DNA from: a virus
Virus record (IMG/VR): IMGVR_UViG_3300027763_000132
Span: 1-36,238 of that record
Length of the DNA: 36,238 bases
Direction: 5' to 3' (one strand)
Below the pieces are notes generated by a model. That model saw only the letters and a program-made list of their open reading frames with translations, was not told where the DNA came from and did no database searches. Of the stretch, positions 11,594 to 36,192 are shown one piece after another (positions within the stretch are counted from its first letter, which is position 1; the number at the start of each line of letters is the position of its first letter). A program made the translations under genes and the position numbers.

Positions 11594-12346
11594 ATGGCAT
11601 CACTATCACCCACCCCTAAACTACAGTTCTTCGGGACTGATGGTTTGCCACTTGTTGGCGGTAAGTTGTACACCTATGCGGCTGGCACAACTACGCCATT
11701 GGCTACATATGTAGATCACACAGGCACGACGACCAACACCAACCCTGTTATCTTGGATTCCAATGGGCAGGCAAACGTGTGGTTGCCTGAGACAACTAGC
11801 TTTAAGTACATCCTCAAAACAGCCGCTGAAACAACGCTGTACACGGTTGACTATGTGTCAATCCCGCTGACGACCAACTCGTTTGCTTCGCCCCCTGCCA
11901 TTGGTACAGGCACACCAAACTCTGCAACATTCACGACTCTGAATGTTACTGGCGCGGCGATCTTTGAAAGTACCGCTGACTTTACTGAAGACACAACCTT
12001 TGACGCTGACGTTGACATTGCTGGCAAGCTCACGCTGTCAGGCACAGGCGCAGCCAAACTAAACGTAGGCACAACTGCCCAACGCCCCGCTTCACCTGTG
12101 GATGGCGATATTCGTTACAACACTAGCAATTTGAGATACGAAGGCTACAGTAACGGCGCATGGGGTCAGTTGGGTGGTGGTGCAACTGGTGGTGGTACAG
12201 ATCAGGTGTTTAACTTGAACAGCAAAACCGTCAATACAAGTTACACGTTCCCCACAAACTTCAACGCAAACTCTGTCGGCCCTATCACCATTGTTGGCGG
12301 CGCTACAGTTACCCTTCCTAGCGGTAGCCGTTGGGTTGTTCTTTAA
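11594..12346 (+). CDS. Tail fibre / receptor-binding protein with head-binding domain
   Basis: This 250-aa protein has a widely shared phage N-terminal domain (about residues 1-95): PTPKLQFFGTDGLPLVGGKL, then YAAGTTTPLATY and a NPVILDSNGQANVWLPE segment. This domain is known to attach fibres or tailspikes to the virion. The C-terminal part (about 95-250) is a Thr/Gly-rich repeat region that includes a QRPASPVDGDIRYNTSN segment common in fibres. It lacks a large receptor-binding domain, so the following paralogues may supply distal parts. Confidence 0.8.
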   Translation: MASLSPTPKLQFFGTDGLPLVGGKLYTYAAGTTTPLATYVDHTGTTTNTNPVILDSNGQANVWLPETTSFKYILKTAAETTLYTVDYVSIPLTTNSFASPPAIGTGTPNSATFTTLNVTGAAIFESTADFTEDTTFDADVDIAGKLTLSGTGAAKLNVGTTAQRPASPVDGDIRYNTSNLRYEGYSNGAWGQLGGGATGGGTDQVFNLNSKTVNTSYTFPTNFNANSVGPITIVGGATVTLPSGSRWVVL

Positions 12347-12355
12347 GGAAAAATT

Positions 12356-12940
12356 ATGTCTCTTGTTTTAACAGGCTCAACTAGCGGAAGTTGTACGCTA
12401 CAAGAACAAGCTGTGGCGGGAACGACTACGCTTACTCTGCCGACTATCACAGGTACTGTTGGTATCTTAGTTAGTGGTACGTCTGTTGCGTCTACTTCTG
12501 GCACAAGCATTGACTTTACTAGCATTCCTGCTGGCGTAAGGCGCATCACCGTTATGTTTAATGGTGTAAGTACAACTGGCACTTCACCACCCCAGATTCA
12601 AATTGGCTCAGGTAGCGTAACAACTTCTGGCTATCTTGGCTCAAATACTTTTCTTAACGCTACGATTGTTGGAGGCGCAAACTTTACAACTGGTTTTGGT
12701 ATTGGTGTTAGCGTTAGTTTGTGGAGCGCGGCTACTGTTTTTCACGGAACAATTGTTTTAACTTTACAAACTGGAAATACTTGGGTGTGTAATGGAAACA
12801 ATGGAACGTCTAACGCAGTAGGCACATATTTAACAAACGGTTCTCTTGCACTTGGCGGGACTCTTGACCGTGTACGCATCACAACCGCAGGCGGTACAGA
12901 AACATTTGACGCTGGTTCTATTAACATTCTTTACGAGTAA
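12356..12940 (+). CDS. Tail fibre-like paralogue 1
   Basis: This 194-aa, beta-rich protein is the first of three related genes. Residues 44-58 (VASTSGTSIDFTSIP), then RRITVMFNGVS, and the C-terminal LGGTLDRVRITTAGG and TFDAGSINILYE segments recur in the genes at 13101 and 13694. It resembles the small beta-sandwich domains at phage fibre tips or decoration proteins. It begins after an AAGGA ribosome binding site, 10 bases after the fibre gene. It probably forms a trimeric or multimeric distal element. Confidence 0.72.
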   Translation: MSLVLTGSTSGSCTLQEQAVAGTTTLTLPTITGTVGILVSGTSVASTSGTSIDFTSIPAGVRRITVMFNGVSTTGTSPPQIQIGSGSVTTSGYLGSNTFLNATIVGGANFTTGFGIGVSVSLWSAATVFHGTIVLTLQTGNTWVCNGNNGTSNAVGTYLTNGSLALGGTLDRVRITTAGGTETFDAGSINILYE

Positions 12941-12945
12941 ACATC

Positions 12946-13101
12946 ATGCCTACAAAAATCATTGTTGATCTTGCAACTGGTCAAGTTACTGAAGTTGAAC
13001 TTGAAGGCGCTGAGTTGGAGGCGTACAACGCTTCGTTGGCGGCTCAAGTTGTTGCACCACCCGCTGAAGTTGTTGCACCACCTGCTGAAGAGGCTAAATA
13101 A
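12946..13101 (+). CDS. 51-aa acidic protein between fibre paralogues
   Basis: ATG at 12946, TAA at 13099-13101. The 51 residues begin MPTKIIVDLATGQVTEVELE. The C-terminus is a tandem duplication (13048-13068 and 13069-13089) encoding VVAPPAE twice. The stop overlaps the ATG of the next fibre paralogue by one base (TAATG), which supports it as a real translated gene. Similar short proteins starting with an xVDxxTGxVxE segment occur beside fibre genes in phages. It could be a small chaperone or linker, but no function is known. Confidence 0.65.
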   Translation: MPTKIIVDLATGQVTEVELEGAELEAYNASLAAQVVAPPAEVVAPPAEEAK

Positions 13102-13691
13102 TGTCTGTCATCATCAACGCATCAACAACGTCTGGTTTAACCCAGACTGCTGACAACAGCGGAACGCTAGAACTACAAAGCAACGGCACGACTAAGTTAA
13201 CTGTTAGCTCTACTGGCGCTTACGGTCAATTGATTTCTGGTACTGCTGTTGCTTCAACAAGCGGTACGTCTATTGACTTTACAAGCATCCCTTCATGGGT
13301 CAAACGTATCACCGTAATGTTAAATGGGGTTAGCACAAGTAGCACAAGTGCTTTGCTAATTCAAGTTGGCTCTAGCTCTGTATCAACTTCGGGTTATACA
13401 TCAGTATCCCAAAACGTAAGCACAGGAACATCGTCATCGGCTGGTTTTTTGTTAAATGGTTCATCAGCAGCCGCACAAACTTACACTTCAGTAGTTCCAA
13501 TCTGTTTGGTTAGTTCTAATACTTGGGTGACTAGCGGCGTACTTGGTATCGGGTCAACGGCTACTAACATTACAACTTTTTCAGGTTCTAGTCCTGCATT
13601 GGGTGGCGCTCTTGATCGAGTTCGCATAACGACTGTCAACGGCACAGACACTTTTGACGCTGGTTCAATCAACATTCTTTACGAGGGCTAA
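13101..13691 (+). CDS. Tail fibre-like paralogue 2
   Basis: This 196-aa protein is paralogous to the products at 12356 and 13694 over its body and C-terminus. Shared blocks are SGTAVASTSGTSIDFTSIP (residues 46-64), SWVKRITVM, LGGALDRVRITTVNGTDTF and DAGSINILYE. The first 40 residues are different: a TSGLTQTADNSGTLELQSNG segment typical of the start of phage beta-helix fibre modules. The N-terminus is therefore modular while the sandwich domain is duplicated. It starts on the stop of the 51-aa gene and is 2 bases from the next paralogue. Confidence 0.72.
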   Translation: MSVIINASTTSGLTQTADNSGTLELQSNGTTKLTVSSTGAYGQLISGTAVASTSGTSIDFTSIPSWVKRITVMLNGVSTSSTSALLIQVGSSSVSTSGYTSVSQNVSTGTSSSAGFLLNGSSAAAQTYTSVVPICLVSSNTWVTSGVLGIGSTATNITTFSGSSPALGGALDRVRITTVNGTDTFDAGSINILYEG

Positions 13692-13693
13692 TC

Positions 13694-14218
13694 ATGTCAA
13701 CAATTATTGATGGCTCCGCAAGCGTCACGATTAATTCAGGTGCTGTTCTAGGCATTACGTCTGGCACAGCCGTAGCATCCACATCAGGCACTAGCATTGA
13801 TTTTACGTCTATCCCTTCTTGGGTGAAACGCATCACTGTGATGTTTAATTCCGTGTCAACAAACGGCTCAAGTATTCTTCAAGTTCAACTTGGTTCTGGT
13901 TCTATTGATGCAACGTCATACACTGGCTCTGCAACAAATATTGACAATGCTATTGGTGGTACTGCTAACTCTACTGGTTTTTTATTGTCTGATGCAAACA
14001 GCGCAGCAAGTACCATGATGGGTATAGCCACAATTGCGTTGTTAGGAAGCAATATTTGGATTTTTAGTTCAAATGGCACATTAGGTTCAGCCGCACAAAG
14101 TAATACTGTTGGTGCAGGCGTTAAGACGCTTTCAGGCACTCTTGACCGTTTACGCATCACTACAGTAAACGGAACCGACACCTTTGACGCTGGTAGCATA
14201 AATATCTTGTATGAGTGA
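13694..14218 (+). CDS. Tail fibre-like paralogue 3
   Basis: This 174-aa protein is the shortest of the three paralogues. Its N-terminus is cut to about 20 residues before the shared SGTAVASTSGTSIDFTSIP block (residues 23-41). It keeps the SWVKRITVMF, LSGTLDRLRITTVNGTDTF and DAGSINILYE segments. The middle third differs most among the copies, as expected if that part forms exposed loops. It overlaps the following membrane protein gene by 8 bases. Confidence 0.72.
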   Translation: MSTIIDGSASVTINSGAVLGITSGTAVASTSGTSIDFTSIPSWVKRITVMFNSVSTNGSSILQVQLGSGSIDATSYTGSATNIDNAIGGTANSTGFLLSDANSAASTMMGIATIALLGSNIWIFSSNGTLGSAAQSNTVGAGVKTLSGTLDRLRITTVNGTDTFDAGSINILYE

Positions 14219-14408
14219 TTCTGTGGAAACAAAGTTGGCGGTGCATGAAGCCATCTGTGCCGAGCGTTACAGCCGCATAGATGACCAGCTTACGTCTGGC
14301 GAAAAGCGCATGACCAAGATTGAATACCTGCTGTATGTGGTGATCTTGGCTGTGCTACTTGGCCCAGGCGTGGCGGCTGAGTTCATCAAGAAGTTGTTAG
14401 GCATCTAA
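14211..14408 (+). CDS. Small single-span membrane protein at the start of the lysis cassette
   Basis: This 65-aa protein has a charged N-terminal half (about 1-37) and one hydrophobic segment YLLYVVILAVLLGPGVAAEF (about 40-59), then a short basic tail. It overlaps the third fibre paralogue by 8 bases and stands first in a run of membrane proteins that ends in an endolysin. The orientation and charge fit a small holin or pinholin-type accessory, but single-span proteins are hard to assign. Confidence 0.68.
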   Translation: MSDSVETKLAVHEAICAERYSRIDDQLTSGEKRMTKIEYLLYVVILAVLLGPGVAAEFIKKLLGI

Positions 14409-14410
14409 AT

Positions 14411-15133
14411 GTGGACCCAATCAGTCTCCTTCTTATGGCACAGAGTGCGGTTGGGGCTATCAGGGCTGGTTGTCAAATGCTTTCAGAAGGTAAGGCAGAA
14501 ATTGGCAAGTTTAAAGAGCAAATCAAAGGGGGCGTAGCAGATGCAAAAGCAATCTTCAAAGAAGTCACAGGCATCTGGGGGTGGATTCAGTCTCTGTTCT
14601 CCACTGAGCAAGCCAAACCAAAACAATTGGCCCTTCCTACTTCAGAAGCAAAACCAAACGCCAAGCCTGTTGCAAAAGCAAAACAAGAGTTAAGTTTTGA
14701 GGAATTCCAAGCAAGAGCCGTACACGACATTTGCGAGAACCTTAAAATTTACTTTGAGGCTATGCGCCAGCTAAAAGCGCATTGTCGGGAACTTGAACAA
14801 CAAGCCCTTGTGACCGAGCGAGTTGCCGACAGCGCGATTGATCGTATTGAAATGGAATGGCAAATGAACCAACTTTCTGCCCAACTAAAACAATCCATGA
14901 TCTACGGAACGCCAGAATCATTGGGGCTAGGCGCTTTGTACCAAGAGTTTTTGGTCAAACATGGCGAAATCCTAGAAGAGCAGGAAGTTGCTAGAGCGTT
15001 AAAAGCAAAGAAATTAAGAGACAACGCATGGCGACAAGAACACCGCAACCAAATTCTGATCGCCAAGGCAACTTACGCAGTGGCAGTAGCAATGGGGTTC
15101 CTTCAACTGATTGGAATGTATTTCACTCTATGA
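14411..15133 (+). CDS. Helical membrane-associated protein of the lysis cassette
   Basis: This 240-aa protein starts with GTG at 14411, 2 bases after the previous stop. An N-terminal amphipathic region (PISLLLMAQSAVGAIRAGCQ), a WGWIQSLF segment (about 57-64) and a Lys/Ala/Pro-rich linker (70-95) are followed by a long coiled coil (about 95-215) and a C-terminal hydrophobic helix (TYAVAVAMGFLQLIGMYFTL, residues 221-240). It is probably tail-anchored. Similar proteins stand upstream of holins in other phages, but I know of no proven function. It may be a spanin-like or lysis-timing protein. Confidence 0.65.
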   Translation: MDPISLLLMAQSAVGAIRAGCQMLSEGKAEIGKFKEQIKGGVADAKAIFKEVTGIWGWIQSLFSTEQAKPKQLALPTSEAKPNAKPVAKAKQELSFEEFQARAVHDICENLKIYFEAMRQLKAHCRELEQQALVTERVADSAIDRIEMEWQMNQLSAQLKQSMIYGTPESLGLGALYQEFLVKHGEILEEQEVARALKAKKLRDNAWRQEHRNQILIAKATYAVAVAMGFLQLIGMYFTL

Positions 15134-18751: not shown

Positions 18752-18985
18752 TTAGAAATCTATATCGTCAAACTCTTGTTTCTTAGGCTTTTGATCGCCT
18801 TCTTTGGGGGTGAAAAGGTACGCCCACCCTTCCCAACCGCCCTCAACCAAAGGCACTTGGTCAAGTTTAAGCATCGGACCTTTCTTAGTCTCAATGACGC
18901 TGCCGATACGTTGGTAACGCACTTTCTCTTGTCCGTCTTTCTGATACGTTCCTGCGCGAACAGTCACTTCATAGATTGTTGCCAT
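18752..18985 (-). CDS. Single-stranded DNA-binding protein-like
   Basis: This 77-aa protein has a beta-rich core (MATIYEVTVRAGTYQKDGQE, then RYQRIGSVIETKKGPMLKLD) and a hydrophilic linker. It ends in an acidic tip, DDIDF, that resembles the DDIPF protein-interaction tail of SSB. Phage proteins of this design are encoded with annealing proteins and exonucleases. It overlaps the upstream YqaJ gene by 17 bases. It probably coats single strands during recombination or replication. The OB fold itself is inferred. Confidence 0.65.
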   Translation of the reverse strand: MATIYEVTVRAGTYQKDGQEKVRYQRIGSVIETKKGPMLKLDQVPLVEGGWEGWAYLFTPKEGDQKPKKQEFDDIDF

Positions 18986-19601
18986 GTTTTTCTTTCAATT
19001 CGTTAAGTTTCATAATTTTGCCATCCAGTTCGGTCAGGAATTGGACAACTTCTTTCTCCAACATTTGAATGTAAGCATCGTCACGGGGTACGCGCTTTAC
19101 AAACAACTGAAGTCCATCTGACATTCGTGGGTCGAATGACACGAAGTCTGCCCATTTTCTGCCCGTACACGCGAGCTGCCAGGCGATCTGCGTCAAATAT
19201 TTGTTAGGCACAGTTTGGCTCAAAAGCGTATCAATATGTGTGGCTGTGTTTGGACATTTTATTTCCAAAACGCCATCATCACTTACCAAGCCATCAGGAG
19301 AAGCGCCAGCCTGCTCAATTGTTGGATGGGTAATCATGGCAACTTCGTCAACTAAAACGTCAGCATGGGCTTCGTATGCCGCCCTAGCTAGTGGTTCAGT
19401 CTCAGTACCCCATTGCATAGCTGCATTGGTAAACGACTCCCCAACTGTGCCTGTCATGCGCTCACAGACCAACTGAGCCATGTAGTTTTCACGGCTTGTT
19501 GAGTAACCCGTTTTAGTCTTGGCGATAACGTCAGCAACCCGTGAGGCAGTTACTTTGCCAAGCCGCTGTGCAAACCATTCTGGCGAACCTTGCTCAATCA
19601 T
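18969..19601 (-). CDS. YqaJ-family viral recombinase / lambda-type exonuclease
   Basis: This 210-aa protein shows GSPEWFAQRLGKVTASR (residues 5-21) and the PD-(D/E)xK nuclease core: GASPDG (99-104) with Asp103, and LEIKCP (112-117) with Glu113 and Lys115. It would resect double-stranded ends to expose single strands for the ERF annealing protein encoded just upstream. Its ATG overlaps the ERF stop (ATGA at 19601-19598), which implies coupled translation of the pair. The length fits the family. Confidence 0.9.
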   Translation of the reverse strand: MIEQGSPEWFAQRLGKVTASRVADVIAKTKTGYSTSRENYMAQLVCERMTGTVGESFTNAAMQWGTETEPLARAAYEAHADVLVDEVAMITHPTIEQAGASPDGLVSDDGVLEIKCPNTATHIDTLLSQTVPNKYLTQIAWQLACTGRKWADFVSFDPRMSDGLQLFVKRVPRDDAYIQMLEKEVVQFLTELDGKIMKLNELKEKHGNNL

Positions 19602-20152
19602 GATAGTGCCGCTTTCTTTTCGTCTTTAGCTGCAATAATTTTCTTTTGCCAATTAGCGTCTGTGCCGCAAGCCTTGTACGCTAACTGGTACGCTTTTTTC
19701 AATGAATCTTCATCAGTAGCGTCTTGGATTGCTAACAGGTGATCTGCCATTAAGTTGGAATCCACAGTAGTCTTTGCTGGTCGTGTAGCTGCATTGCCAT
19801 CATCATCTTCAGGGGCAATGCCGCAAGCCGCCATCAAGCTGTAGCGTCTAGCGTATGTCAGCGCCGAGCCATAACCTTGTGGGTCTTGTTTACTAGCAGG
19901 AACTTGCAAGATGCCACATTCAAGCATTTCGCCTGATTCGTGAATAAACACAGTCTCAATCATGATGCCTGTTGAACAGTCGTAACACTTCTGAATCATG
20001 GCAATTCCGTTATCGTTTAAAGCGTCTATGACGGCCTCAACGCAAGCGGATAGGTCAGCATATCGGCTACGGAAATGCGGGTTTGTAGCGGTCTTTAAAG
20101 CAGGGCCAAAGGCTTTCTGTGCTTTGACCAAGGCGGTGGCAATTTGTTTCAT
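19598..20152 (-). CDS. ERF-family single-strand annealing protein
   Basis: This 184-aa protein belongs to the ERF superfamily (P22 essential recombination function). The family block is visible: FRSRYADL (27-34) and DPQGYGSALTYARRYSLMAA (90-109), followed by the acidic EDDDGN. It anneals complementary single strands in phage recombination. The ATG at 20152 is chosen over a TTG at 20164 because it forms an ATGA overlap with the stop of the 42-aa gene upstream. The C-terminal third (about 125-184) is a helical variable domain. Confidence 0.9.
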   Translation of the reverse strand: MKQIATALVKAQKAFGPALKTATNPHFRSRYADLSACVEAVIDALNDNGIAMIQKCYDCSTGIMIETVFIHESGEMLECGILQVPASKQDPQGYGSALTYARRYSLMAACGIAPEDDDGNAATRPAKTTVDSNLMADHLLAIQDATDEDSLKKAYQLAYKACGTDANWQKKIIAAKDEKKAALS

Positions 20153-20277
20153 AGTCCTGTCCAAATCAAAATGAATACGGTGAAGGCGGCAACAACATAA
20201 AGAACACGCAAGACGCGCTCATGCAATGGTTGTTTTGGGGTTGTGAGTTCGGGGTAAAAAGTGCGTTTGGGTTTCAT
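20149..20277 (-). CDS. 42-aa single-span membrane microprotein in the recombination operon
   Basis: ATG at 20277-20275, TGA at 20151-20149. The sequence begins MKPKRTFYPELTTPKQPLHE. A basic N-terminus is followed by a hydrophobic helix VLYVVAAFTVFILIWTGL (residues 25-42) that runs to the end, so it is tail-anchored. Both ends form ATGA overlaps, with the 72-aa gene upstream and with the ERF gene downstream, which supports real translation. The function is unknown. A membrane protein in an early recombination operon could act in exclusion or host takeover. Confidence 0.68.
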   Translation of the reverse strand: MKPKRTFYPELTTPKQPLHERVLRVLYVVAAFTVFILIWTGL

Positions 20278-21231: not shown

Positions 21232-21997
21232 CTTCATCAAGGACACATCGTTCTTGACAAACGAAGAAGTCGGCATTTATTTAAAACTTCTGTGGCTTTA
21301 TTACGACACAGAACAACCATTGCCAAACGCAATGTTTGAACTTTCCATGAAAGTCAATGCGCGTGATCAACAAGATGCATTGGCTGGACTTCTTGAAATG
21401 TTTTTTAAATTAGAAGACAACGAATGGCATCACACACGTTGCGACAAAGAAATTAAGCATTACCACCAACAGCTAGACACAGCTTCTAAAGCTGGAAAAG
21501 CATCAGCGGCTAAACGGGCGTTGAACAAGAATCCAACGGGCGTTGAACGGTCGTTAGAGTTACGTTCAACAGACGTTCAACCAACCAATAACCAAGAACC
21601 AATAACCATTAACCAAGAACCAAAGGTTAAGACGCAGCGCGGGTCGCGCTTACCAAAAGATTGGATTTGTGAAAATTCTTGGGCTGAATGGGCAAGGAAA
21701 GAAAGACCAGACCTAAACATTACTAAGGTGGCTGAATCTTTTTATGACTACTGGATTGCCAAACCTGGTGCTGGTGGTGTGAAATTGAATTGGGAAGCTA
21801 CATGGCGTAATTGGGTTCGCAGTCAATCAACACCTAAGACTTTTGCCAACAAATACGATGTAGCGCACATCACTACTCCACCACCGCCAAATCAAGACGC
21901 TGCTTTGCGGAAGATTGAGGAAGACCGAAAGAAGGCTGTGCCGCCATCATTGGAGACATTGGCTAAATTGGCAGAATTAAGAAAGAAGGTGGTATGA
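21203..21997 (+). CDS. Replication initiation protein with DUF1376 domain
   Basis: This 264-aa protein has the DUF1376 N-terminal domain (about residues 2-85): YYQHHIGDFIKDTSFLTNEE, then YLKLLWLYYDTEQPLP. A Thr/Asn/Gln-rich linker (105-145) precedes a C-terminal domain (about 148-212, LPKDW ... LNWEATWRNWVRSQ) like those of phage replication O/DnaT-type proteins. It is expected to bind the origin and recruit the host helicase and replisome, which fits the lack of phage polymerase. Its stop overlaps the methyltransferase start. Confidence 0.8.
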   Translation: MHYYQHHIGDFIKDTSFLTNEEVGIYLKLLWLYYDTEQPLPNAMFELSMKVNARDQQDALAGLLEMFFKLEDNEWHHTRCDKEIKHYHQQLDTASKAGKASAAKRALNKNPTGVERSLELRSTDVQPTNNQEPITINQEPKVKTQRGSRLPKDWICENSWAEWARKERPDLNITKVAESFYDYWIAKPGAGGVKLNWEATWRNWVRSQSTPKTFANKYDVAHITTPPPPNQDAALRKIEEDRKKAVPPSLETLAKLAELRKKVV

Positions 21998-22851
21998 ATG
22001 AGCTGGCTTTATTCGCAGGCGCTGGTGGAGGAATACTTGGGGGAAAACTTCTCGGATGGCGAACAGTCTGCGCCGTTGAATGGGAACCCTATCCAGCAAG
22101 CGTATTGTGCGCCCGACAAAATGACGGTTTTCTCCCGCCTTTCCCGATTTGGGATGATGTTCAAACCTTTGACGGAAAGCCGTGGAGAGGAATTGTTGAC
22201 GTTGTATCGGGGGGTTTTCCTTGCCAGGACATATCAGCCGCAGGAAAAGGGGCAGGAATTGACGGAGAACGAAGCGGAATGTGGGGAGAAATGGCACGCA
22301 TCATTTACGAAGTACGACCCAGATATGCGTTTGTGGAAAACTCACCAATGCTCACTTCTAGGGGACTTGGAAGAGTTCTCGGAGACTTGGCCTCAATGGG
22401 GTTTGATGCGCGATGGGGAGTGTTGGGAGCAGCGGATGTTGGAGCAAACCATCAGAGGGACAGAATCTGGATTGTCGGAAAGGCTGCCAACTCCACAAGC
22501 GTCAGATCACATAAGCAAGCCAACCAGTGCGTCATGGAAAGCAAAGGGGGGAATAAATTTCAGTCTGGGCAATCCAGAAATACAAGCGAAATGGCCTACT
22601 CCCGTGAAATCGGATTACGCAGCAAGAAGGCCGAGCAAAGGATGGAGGGGAACATCGGATTTGCCAAGTGTGGTATGGACAGAGACTGGTGGGCGAGAGA
22701 ACCCGAATCTATCTCCCGCACAACTCAACGCGAGGTGGGTGGAGTGGCTGATGGGATGGCCTCTAGGGTGGACGAAATTAAAGCCCTTGGAAATGGACAA
22801 GTCCCATTGTGCGCCGCAACAGCATGGAGAATCCTAAGTGAACTACTTTGA
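21994..22851 (+). CDS. DNA (cytosine-5)-methyltransferase
   Basis: This 285-aa protein has the C5 motifs in order: motif I FAGAGGGILGG (7-17), motif IV GGFPCQDIS (73-81) with the catalytic Cys77, motif VI VENSP (114-118; ENS in place of the usual ENV), motif VIII NHQRDRIW (152-159), and motif X GNGQVPLCAATAW (266-278). The target-recognition region between VIII and X is short (about 160-260). It methylates cytosine in a specific site, probably to evade host restriction. No cognate endonuclease is present. A second long ORF lies inside it in the +1 frame. Confidence 0.9.
   Translation: MNELALFAGAGGGILGGKLLGWRTVCAVEWEPYPASVLCARQNDGFLPPFPIWDDVQTFDGKPWRGIVDVVSGGFPCQDISAAGKGAGIDGERSGMWGEMARIIYEVRPRYAFVENSPMLTSRGLGRVLGDLASMGFDARWGVLGAADVGANHQRDRIWIVGKAANSTSVRSHKQANQCVMESKGGNKFQSGQSRNTSEMAYSREIGLRSKKAEQRMEGNIGFAKCGMDRDWWAREPESISRTTQREVGGVADGMASRVDEIKALGNGQVPLCAATAWRILSELL
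21998..22837 (+). CDS. 279-aa overprinted protein nested in the methyltransferase gene (+1 frame)
   Basis: ATG at 21998, four bases after the methyltransferase ATG, sharing its AAGAAGG ribosome binding site. It runs open for 279 codons to a TAA at 22835-22837. Features are SWLYSQALVEEYLGENFSDG at the start, LTESRGEELLTLYRG (about 59-73), LPTPQASD and WPTPVKSDY (about 161-210), and a Trp-rich end, NARWVEWLMGWPLGWTKLK. I recall closely similar proteins in phages and Burkholderiales, often mislabelled as methyltransferase. The next gene's GTG follows its stop with no gap (TAAGTG). The function is unknown; a partner or regulator of the methyltransferase is possible. Confidence 0.72.
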   Translation: MSWLYSQALVEEYLGENFSDGEQSAPLNGNPIQQAYCAPDKMTVFSRLSRFGMMFKPLTESRGEELLTLYRGVFLARTYQPQEKGQELTENEAECGEKWHASFTKYDPDMRLWKTHQCSLLGDLEEFSETWPQWGLMRDGECWEQRMLEQTIRGTESGLSERLPTPQASDHISKPTSASWKAKGGINFSLGNPEIQAKWPTPVKSDYAARRPSKGWRGTSDLPSVVWTETGGRENPNLSPAQLNARWVEWLMGWPLGWTKLKPLEMDKSHCAPQQHGES

Positions 22852-33891: not shown

Positions 33892-36192
33892 ATGGCTGAT
33901 AGGTATTGGGTTGGCGGAACAGGTACTTGGAGTTCAACAAGCACTGCAAGATGGTCTGCAACATCAGGCGGGGCTACTGGCGCATCTGTTCCTACTGCCG
34001 CAGATAACGTATTCTTTGATGCTAACTCAAACGTAGGGACGGGCGCATTTACAGTAACAATGTCAAATTCGCCAAGGGTCTGTAACAACTTCACAGCGTC
34101 AGGTCTTGATGGAACAATGACCCTTGCAGGTACAAGTATTGGTTTGACAGTATCAGGAAGTCTTACATTTCAAGCTACTAATTTTACTCGTACCTATACA
34201 GGCACAACAACATTTGCCGCCACCACAACTGGTAAAACTATAACAACCAACGGAAAAACGCTTACAGGAGGTGTTACCTTTACCGGTTCTGGCGGTGGTT
34301 GGACATTAGGTAGCGCATTAGATTGTGGAAGTGGCACTATTTCACATCTTTATGGAACATTTGATACTGGAGGCTATGCTGTTACTGCTGGAAGTCTTCT
34401 TTCTAATAGCAGTATTACACGAACTTTAAATTTAAATAATTCAACTATTATATTAAGCGCAACAAGTAGCGCCCTTGTACTTTCTGGTGGAAATCTTACA
34501 TTTAATGCGGGAACTTCCTCAATAAATTTGACAAACGCTAATATCTTTAATAATAGTGAATCTGTTACATTTTATGATTTAACTATATATTCTGCAACAA
34601 TCGTATCATTTAGCGGCGCAAATACATTCAATCGGTTAACTATTACTGCTAATAACACTAATACAACCTTTTCAAGTTCAAATACAATTAACATTTTAAG
34701 ATCAATTAACTCTTCTTCTAATATTTCTAATTTTATTTTTAACGCAAATCAAACAATCAACAAGTTTGAACTAGGCAGCTCTAACTCGGACCTCAGCGCT
34801 AATCGTATAATGCTTCGCTCTAATTCTATTGGTACTCAGCGTTCGATAGCAATGACAAGCGGCTCTTTACTAGACAACGTTGATTTTAGAGATATTGCTA
34901 TAACGGGAACTACGCTATCTGGAATAAGACTAGGAGACTGTAAAGGAAATAGCGGCATTACTTTTGATGCCCCAAAAACTGTTTATTATGCTAACACAGT
35001 TACTGGAAATTGGTCGGACAATGCTTGGGTGTCCACCCCTGGAGGCTTGGCAGACTCTACTCAATTCCCACTAGCTCAAGATACAGCCGTATTCCAAGCA
35101 AGCCCAAACCCCACATCGGGTGCAACGGTAACTATTAGCGCCAACTACAATATTGGTACAATAGATATGTCATTGAGAACGCCAGTTGGTGTAATAACTA
35201 ACAATATGACGTTAGCAATGGGTTCAACTCAACCAGCAATTTATGGCAATTGGACTAACGGTACTAGCACAACTATAACTGGCGCATCAACTCTAACTTT
35301 TGCGGGTCGCCAAACACAAACTATAACATCGGCTGGAATAACATTTCCCGTAAATATTACTATATCTAATGTAAACACTACTGTCCGTATTGTCGGTAAT
35401 TTGACTGCTGGTAACTATTTAACTTTAAATGACAGCACTTTGAATTTAAATGGTTACACGGCTAGTTCTGCATACTTTGAGGCAAACGGGTCGCCAAATT
35501 TAACTTTTAATGGTGGCACATTACAATTTACGGCGGGTTTTGAGGCTTCTTTTAGTGGGTTGACTACAACTCAGGGGTCTAGCGCAGGAAAAATTGTAGC
35601 AGGGGGTTCTAGCCCTACTTTTAATGGCGGTGGTCGCATATACAATTGCACATTAGAAATTTCTTCTTCTATAGGAATAAACGGCTCAAATACATTTACA
35701 AATATTACTAATACTGTAACGCCTGTAAGCATTTATTTTGAATATAATACGACCAATACATTTACAAACTGGAATGTAAACGGAACAGCTGGAAATCTAG
35801 TAACTCTGGACTCATCTGATGGTTCAGCTAGTTTTTCTCTCTCAAAAGCAAGCGGAATTGTAAGTTCAGATTACTTAAATATTAATCATTCAGATGCTAT
35901 TGGAGGCGCTGCATGGTACGCAGGAACTCACTCAATAAAAGACGGCGCTACTTCAGGATGGATACTTACTGCTCCTCCTGGCGGGAATTACACAATCTCG
36001 GCAGACAACGGAACCTATGCTGTGACAGGCCAATCTGCTACACTTTTACGAAACAAGGTCTTGTCTGGCGGTTACGGGCTGTATACTTTGACGGGTCAGG
36101 ATGCGATAATCACTTTTGACGGCGAGCCTGTTGTTGTTAGTGAACAATTGTTGGTTAAACTTCGGTCATTTACCGAAAGAAGGAGATTTTAA
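33892..36192 (+). CDS. Adhesin-like beta-helix structural protein
   Basis: This 766-aa protein starts MADRYWVGGTGTWSSTSTAR and repeats a related motif around residue 370 (NTVTGNWSDNAWVSTPGGLA), two copies of a xGxWSxxxxW module that I recall at the start of phage adhesins. Most of the protein is Thr/Ser/Asn-rich with short strand repeats, consistent with a beta-helix. The C-terminus (about 698-741) has a GNYTISADNGTYAVTGQ-type repeat. The middle is very AT-rich relative to neighbouring head genes, suggesting acquired sequence. It may be a surface or host-binding fibre. Confidence 0.75.
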   Translation: MADRYWVGGTGTWSSTSTARWSATSGGATGASVPTAADNVFFDANSNVGTGAFTVTMSNSPRVCNNFTASGLDGTMTLAGTSIGLTVSGSLTFQATNFTRTYTGTTTFAATTTGKTITTNGKTLTGGVTFTGSGGGWTLGSALDCGSGTISHLYGTFDTGGYAVTAGSLLSNSSITRTLNLNNSTIILSATSSALVLSGGNLTFNAGTSSINLTNANIFNNSESVTFYDLTIYSATIVSFSGANTFNRLTITANNTNTTFSSSNTINILRSINSSSNISNFIFNANQTINKFELGSSNSDLSANRIMLRSNSIGTQRSIAMTSGSLLDNVDFRDIAITGTTLSGIRLGDCKGNSGITFDAPKTVYYANTVTGNWSDNAWVSTPGGLADSTQFPLAQDTAVFQASPNPTSGATVTISANYNIGTIDMSLRTPVGVITNNMTLAMGSTQPAIYGNWTNGTSTTITGASTLTFAGRQTQTITSAGITFPVNITISNVNTTVRIVGNLTAGNYLTLNDSTLNLNGYTASSAYFEANGSPNLTFNGGTLQFTAGFEASFSGLTTTQGSSAGKIVAGGSSPTFNGGGRIYNCTLEISSSIGINGSNTFTNITNTVTPVSIYFEYNTTNTFTNWNVNGTAGNLVTLDSSDGSASFSLSKASGIVSSDYLNINHSDAIGGAAWYAGTHSIKDGATSGWILTAPPGGNYTISADNGTYAVTGQSATLLRNKVLSGGYGLYTLTGQDAIITFDGEPVVVSEQLLVKLRSFTERRRF

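Follow-up and report, generated by a model that had tools for sequence, protein, structure and literature searches.

Tandem genes of a P22-like podovirus as likely fibre-tip paralogues with ordered N-terminal sockets and exchangeable middles

The window, by which we mean the whole 36,238-base stretch analysed here, is a genome piece of a P22-like podovirus with portal (PF16510), coat (PF11651), M15 peptidase, ERF and YqaJ genes; the same virus is present in another record (L004, 100% identity over 5,700 bases). A tip module lies after a fibre gene and before the lysis genes. The gene order is P0005, copy 1, a 51-residue gene, copy 2, copy 3 and a 65-residue gene, all on the plus strand, tightly spaced and in places overlapping in an operon-like arrangement. 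P0005 (11594–12346, 250 residues) is the upstream fibre protein and matches phrog_26190, phrog_745 and the tail-fibre family phrog_5342. Its N-terminal part is conserved and common to the fibres of relatives: residues 1–95 are 99% identical in L167 and L191, despite different downstream tips. P0005 probably forms the base of this fibre module. Positions 33892–36192, with which the record ends, encode a repeat-rich protein of 766 residues that matches no PHROG or Pfam family and may be a further fibre or surface protein.

Copies 1–3 are intact tandem genes with a C-terminal domain of about 150 residues in common and with N termini that differ. Copy 1 (12356–12940, 194 residues) combines an N terminus of type A with a tip domain at 12470–12937, copy 2 (13101–13691, 196 residues) type B with a domain at 13233–13685, and copy 3 (13694–14218, 174 residues) type C with a domain at 13757–14215. 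The domain is built from a conserved head (STSGTSIDFTSIP...RITVM), a hypervariable middle (12562–12862, 13322–13613 and 13850–14152 in copies 1, 2 and 3, respectively) and a conserved tail (...DAGSINILYE); STSGTSIDFTSIP is present in all three copies, and all three terminate in TFDAGSINILYE. The initial annotation, which described three adjacent fibre-like genes with shared blocks and divergent N termini and middles, was right in both coordinates and reading frames. Copies 2 and 3 are 54% and 51% identical to copy 1. With copy 2 as reference, copy 3 matches at E = 2e-44 and copy 1 at E = 3e-39, so the similarity among the copies is not due to chance. At the DNA level, the constant parts form two families of direct repeats, the tail one 112 nt and the head one 108 nt long; both have three copies, at 64–75% identity. 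All three proteins match PHROG 29482, a family of unknown function (copy 1, E = 1.6e-9; copy 2, E = 4.2e-9; copy 3, E = 5.8e-12), at about profile positions 317–474 of 477, and none has a Pfam match at E ≤ 1. What the copies have in common with this family is its C-terminal part; the profile is 477 positions long, whereas here the domain sits in short tandem genes.

Between copies 1 and 2 lies the 51-residue gene (12946–13101), whose stop codon overlaps the ATG of copy 2. The initial annotation had this gene as an insertion carrying an internal duplication. Its presence and its repeat are confirmed, but homologues adjoin the domain genes in many relatives: in 131 loci the family has 132 homologues, which often lie between domain copies or behind them, and the order domain–small gene–domain is frequent. 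Homologues also occur in loci without a complete domain copy. The gene is thus a regular companion of the domain genes and no insertion. Two 21-nt repeats at 13042–13083 encode VVAPPAE twice, within the short low-complexity tail of the protein. This tail differs in the two closest relatives, which suggests slippage at the repeats; the repeat itself is a minor feature. The gene of the window has no Pfam or PHROG match, one relative matches phrog_5784 (unknown function), and relatives with other fibres carry different small genes at this position. From its position, we would guess that it encodes a fibre-assembly helper. A second small gene (14211–14408, 65 residues) shares 8 nt with the end of copy 3 and closes the exchangeable module.

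A scan of viral contigs for the tip domain returned at least 565 confirmed relatives. A profile search of 84 loci counted one domain copy in 44, two in 23, three in 16 and four in 1, numbers that are lower bounds as many loci end at contig ends. Loci anchored on P0005 that extend 3.5 kb or more downstream number 50, counting the window; 21 of them had no copy, 19 had one, 8 had two and 2 had three. The copy-number change among relatives that had been anticipated is thus present, at 0–4 domain copies per locus, although all multi-copy examples come from metagenomic contigs, in which assembly chimeras are possible. Neighbouring copies are usually spaced by 8 to 175 bases. Isolates with the domain (Rhizobium phages, Pseudomonas phage AH02 and Pelagibacter phage HTVC019P) carry it once per record; the AH02 protein is annotated as a major tropism determinant and some isolate records as tail fibre, and in AH02 and RHph_N2 the domain forms the C-terminal end of a longer fibre-like protein. 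Bacterial genomes yielded only 13 relatives of the domain, mostly in metagenome-assembled genomes.

The module is also replaced as a whole. In L191, L221, L222 and L224, positions 11990–14211 give way to a different, longer fibre and another small gene; the replacement set in L191 and L224 is a long fibre with an assembly-like gene. Directly downstream, the 286 bases from 14211 to 14496 are 94–95% identical in DNA to L221, L222 and L224, though the preceding fibre genes differ, and outside this segment these loci are mostly about 75–80% identical to the window. This edge is a sharp module boundary and probably a recombination joint. These observations bear on the idea that the copies are decoration proteins, or minor structural proteins of another kind, with no part in receptor recognition. 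Their short N termini and the lack of a Pfam family would suit such a role, which we nevertheless regard as improbable given the location between fibre and lysis genes, the swap of the whole module for a long fibre and assembly-like gene in L191 and L224, and the fusion of the domain to longer fibre-like proteins in isolates.

Copies 1 and 3 were modelled with AlphaFold2 from alignments of 59–67 sequences (copy 1, pLDDT 86 and pTM 0.77; copy 3, pLDDT 87 and pTM 0.81). Both models contain eleven domain strands in the same order and of similar lengths; unrelated folds, which would have spoken against the initial reading, are not predicted. Alignments to solved structures were mostly with legume lectins, galectins and GH32 C-terminal sandwiches, at Z scores of 6.7–7.8, below the trust level of Z 8, and with r.m.s.d. 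values of mostly 3–4 over about 105–135 residues. Foldseek gave no PDB hit at E ≤ 0.001, and the sequence search for solved relatives gave one chance-level match only. In a viral structure library, many uncharacterised phage proteins matched, with a best TM score of about 0.8. The models point to a concanavalin/galectin-like β-sandwich, lectin-like here denoting a fold class and not a function; C-type lectins are absent from the structure matches listed, though the domain could yet have a C-type fold. Mean entropy is 0.94 bits up to residue 75, 2.54 for residues 76–142 and 0.57 from residue 146 on, so that variability falls on the strands and loops in the middle of the domain, while its first and last strands are constant. 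We also looked for an alternation of variable residues along strands, as for one exposed sheet face; odd/even differences were only weak and the pattern was not clear.

Comparison with the two closest relatives, L087 (the same contig as L167) and L088 (the same contig as L168), locates the changes precisely. Both are 93% identical to the window over 7.9–8.7 kb upstream. Identity ends at 12561–12573, resumes at 12863–12872, continues to 13321, ends, and resumes at 13614 (L087). The middle of copy 1 has no blastn match to the closest relative, with flanks that are 93% (upstream) and 85% (downstream) identical in DNA; the middle of copy 2, between 13321 and 13614, has no match to the counterpart copy of L087/L167, and that of copy 3 none to the copy 3 position of this contig. 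Every middle has been replaced and every joint between middles kept. Copy 1 of L088 is itself a mosaic with respect to L087: up to the RITVM codons it resembles copy 1 (about 90%), through the middle copy 3 (about 97% in DNA) and in the last codons copy 1 once more. The two switch points fall inside RITVM and inside DTFDAG, both in conserved blocks. An assembly error would have to involve two switches, as the L088 contig runs on into the small gene and copy 2.

We compared 299 domain copies, a non-random set of best hits from several scans in which a bias towards similar N termini, not towards swaps, is expected. The background identity of middles has a median of 27%, and the 249 pairs with N termini at least 90% identical have the same median, 96% of them below 40%. 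Conversely, N termini are unrelated (below 45%) in 29 of the 42 pairs whose middles reach 60% identity. Middles at least 75% identical on unrelated N termini form about 12 separate groups, as counted from the pair table, including L027/L375 (100%), L303/L326 (97%), L067/L073 (96%), L269 and L280/L270 (94%) and L087/L088 (92%); L269 and L280 carry the same arrangement, and its being seen twice speaks against an assembly chimera. The window takes part as well: its copy 2 middle is 80% identical to that of copy 2 of L018, whose N terminus is of another, unrelated type and whose DNA match to the window is confined to the fibre region. With type labels shuffled, 306 same-type pairs would be expected at a middle identity of at least 0.35 and 302 are seen; at 0.5 or above, 8 are seen against 3.4 expected, an excess indicating that recent history is partly vertical. 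Across the 299 copies, middles are independent of N termini. Alternatively, diversifying selection acting on point mutations and small indels might make the middles diverge fast, with no exchange of cassettes. That account would equally produce the 27% background of most copies, and synonymous sites of the blocks are indeed near saturation; it is unlikely in view of the 75–100% identical middles on unrelated N termini and of the abrupt jumps in DNA identity inside the blocks.

The three copies of this genome carry no such recent trace. They agree at 31 (33%) of 93 4-fold degenerate positions in the constant blocks, where chance would give 28%, and their longest exact DNA match is 15 nt. With synonymous sites near chance and exact matches this short, we reject recent gene conversion among them. 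The proposal that the copies recombine with one another as a reservoir for change is thus borne out in relatives, in which middles move between copy positions with base-level breakpoints, and finds no support as recent conversion in this genome. Exchange must be occasional, and other phages can be the partners. The constant blocks are kept as protein and not as DNA sites. We considered DNA-level recombination sites within the blocks and rejected them: 4-fold agreement is 0.38 when different loci are compared and 0.45 inside a locus, the chance value being 0.28, and a common codon usage can account for this.

Two genes on the minus strand could supply the recombination activity, an ERF single-strand annealing protein (19598–20164; PF04404, E = 3.3e-21), possibly the agent that recombines diverged sequences, and a YqaJ-like exonuclease (18969–19601; PF09588, E = 5.8e-32), its possible partner. 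ERF-type recombinases accept diverged DNA, as with phage D3 ERF, which is about as efficient as lambda Red on 78% identical substrates (PMC3945230), so a role of ERF in the exchange of middles is plausible; at 64–75% identity, the blocks are somewhat beyond the divergence range of that work (PMC3945230). In the same genome, two long open reading frames on one strand, 21994–22851 and 21998–22837 (both plus), overlap almost fully in different frames; the first hit for one frame is to C5 cytosine methylases (PF00145, E = 1e-30), while the second frame has matches to phrog_26627 and, at E = 1e-25, to PHROG 1008 'DNA methyltransferase', an apparent case of about 840 bases of dual coding.

A hypervariable domain between constant ends, with one isolate relative annotated as major tropism determinant, also calls to mind a dedicated diversity system, either a diversity-generating retroelement (DGR) or a site-specific inversion (shufflon). 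We consider this highly improbable. The record, which is possibly a fragment, has no match to a reverse transcriptase (RVT_1) or to a serine (PF00239) or tyrosine (PF00589) recombinase; moreover, the copies are all direct and their blocks are conserved as protein rather than as DNA sites. DGR-targeted receptor-binding proteins and tentaclins resemble the present genes in having a lectin-like domain with concentrated variability and, sometimes, two target genes (PMC10743442). They differ in their C-type lectin fold and retroelement-driven mutation (PMC10743442).

The N termini follow a different rule from the middles. Type A leads, B or B2 follows, and C or D comes last, an order that 75 of the 76 typed pairs obey; the types were assigned by simple hand-written patterns, which left 113 copies untyped. 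Fixed order together with interchangeable middles suggests that the N terminus sets the place and the middle sets the target, although the order could also come from common descent of the cluster. In the relative L169 (L169:6763-7578), only the type C copy is kept, and the positions of copies 1 and 2 hold two different genes, short and adhesin-like, that have AWVNFNGTGTVAIR in common; these slots may thus be open to other tip families. The initial annotation had raised a mixed fibre tip as one option. In that reading, the three proteins would form a heterotrimer in which combinations, not single copies, set specificity. Adjacent or overlapping genes, a common fold and constant ends that could form a trimer interface are compatible with it. 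We find it rather unlikely, with N-terminal parts that differ, an order that is fixed, many relatives that are single-copy and isolates that carry one copy; differing N termini in conserved order are more readily explained by separate docking positions than by one trimer with random mixing.

We consider it likely that the three genes encode paralogous tip proteins of the tail-fibre module, with ordered sockets and an exchangeable receptor-binding tip. They would be the receptor-binding proteins of a P22-like podovirus fibre, each with a type-specific N-terminal piece serving as the socket for a given place and a lectin-like β-sandwich in which the first and last strands stay constant and the middle strands and loops provide the variable recognition surface. 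The N terminus would attach and the middle would recognise. Recombination within the two constant blocks would swap the middle, between copies and between phages, while sockets and order stay, and the phage could display up to three different tips simultaneously, each renewable from a shared pool. Tip location, sugar binding, separate docking sites and a role of the phage's own ERF and YqaJ are what we infer within this model. As in modular receptor-binding proteins, these putative ones lie in a fibre module, are exchanged as a module and have an N terminus separable from the variable middle.

T-even gp38 adhesins are, to our knowledge, encoded by one gene per phage and not by tandem paralogues. 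Like the domain described here, they alternate constant motifs with hypervariable segments that are reshuffled into chimeras, but they have glycine-rich motifs and a polyglycine sandwich, different in sequence and fold (PMC6630733); the copies show no Pfam match at E ≤ 1, and their constant blocks are not glycine-rich runs. The branched tail-spike complex of Ackermannviridae, TSP1–TSP4 (PMC11414711), is similar in its clustered receptor-binding genes, its conserved, position-specific N-terminal docking parts, its variable recognition parts (C-terminal in TSPs) and its chimeras formed by recombination between genes (PMC11414711). TSPs are large spikes with XD/TD docking domains, whereas here the proteins have 174–196 residues and a predicted β-sandwich tip, none of the three copies has an XD/TD domain (no Pfam match), and variability is confined to an internal part that a constant C-terminal end follows. 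Smug et al. 2023, on domain shuffling in phage receptor-binding proteins (PMC10684548), and Mizuno et al. 2014, on metaviromic islands (PMC3909814), concern the general phenomenon that few parts of phage proteins are as mosaic and as variable as recognition domains; the available text of these papers has no account of this domain family, of sockets in fixed order or of movement from one tandem paralogue to another. Modular, recombining receptor-binding proteins are already well known (PMC10684548, PMC11414711, PMC6630733, PMC3909814). A literature search for the head and tail motifs returned nothing, and the novelty seems to lie in the way a common unnamed lectin-like domain is combined with tandem short genes, with sockets in a set order and with an internal core that moves between those sockets.

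Exchange of tip cores probably lets these viruses change the surface structures that they recognise and, if true, would explain the differing fibre regions of otherwise 93% identical phages. More tentatively, a widespread group of uncultured phages may permanently carry several tip genes whose sockets have a fixed order, may move a small recognition core from socket to socket by homologous recombination in the domain's constant ends, and may in this way renew several specificities in parallel without a retroelement or site-specific recombinase. If true, a role and a mechanism would be assigned to a very common unnamed domain that has no Pfam family, and a small, well-bounded unit would become available for testing how phages gain and lose receptors. 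Annotation of uncultured phages would also be aided, with host links drawn from tip cores rather than from whole fibre genes.
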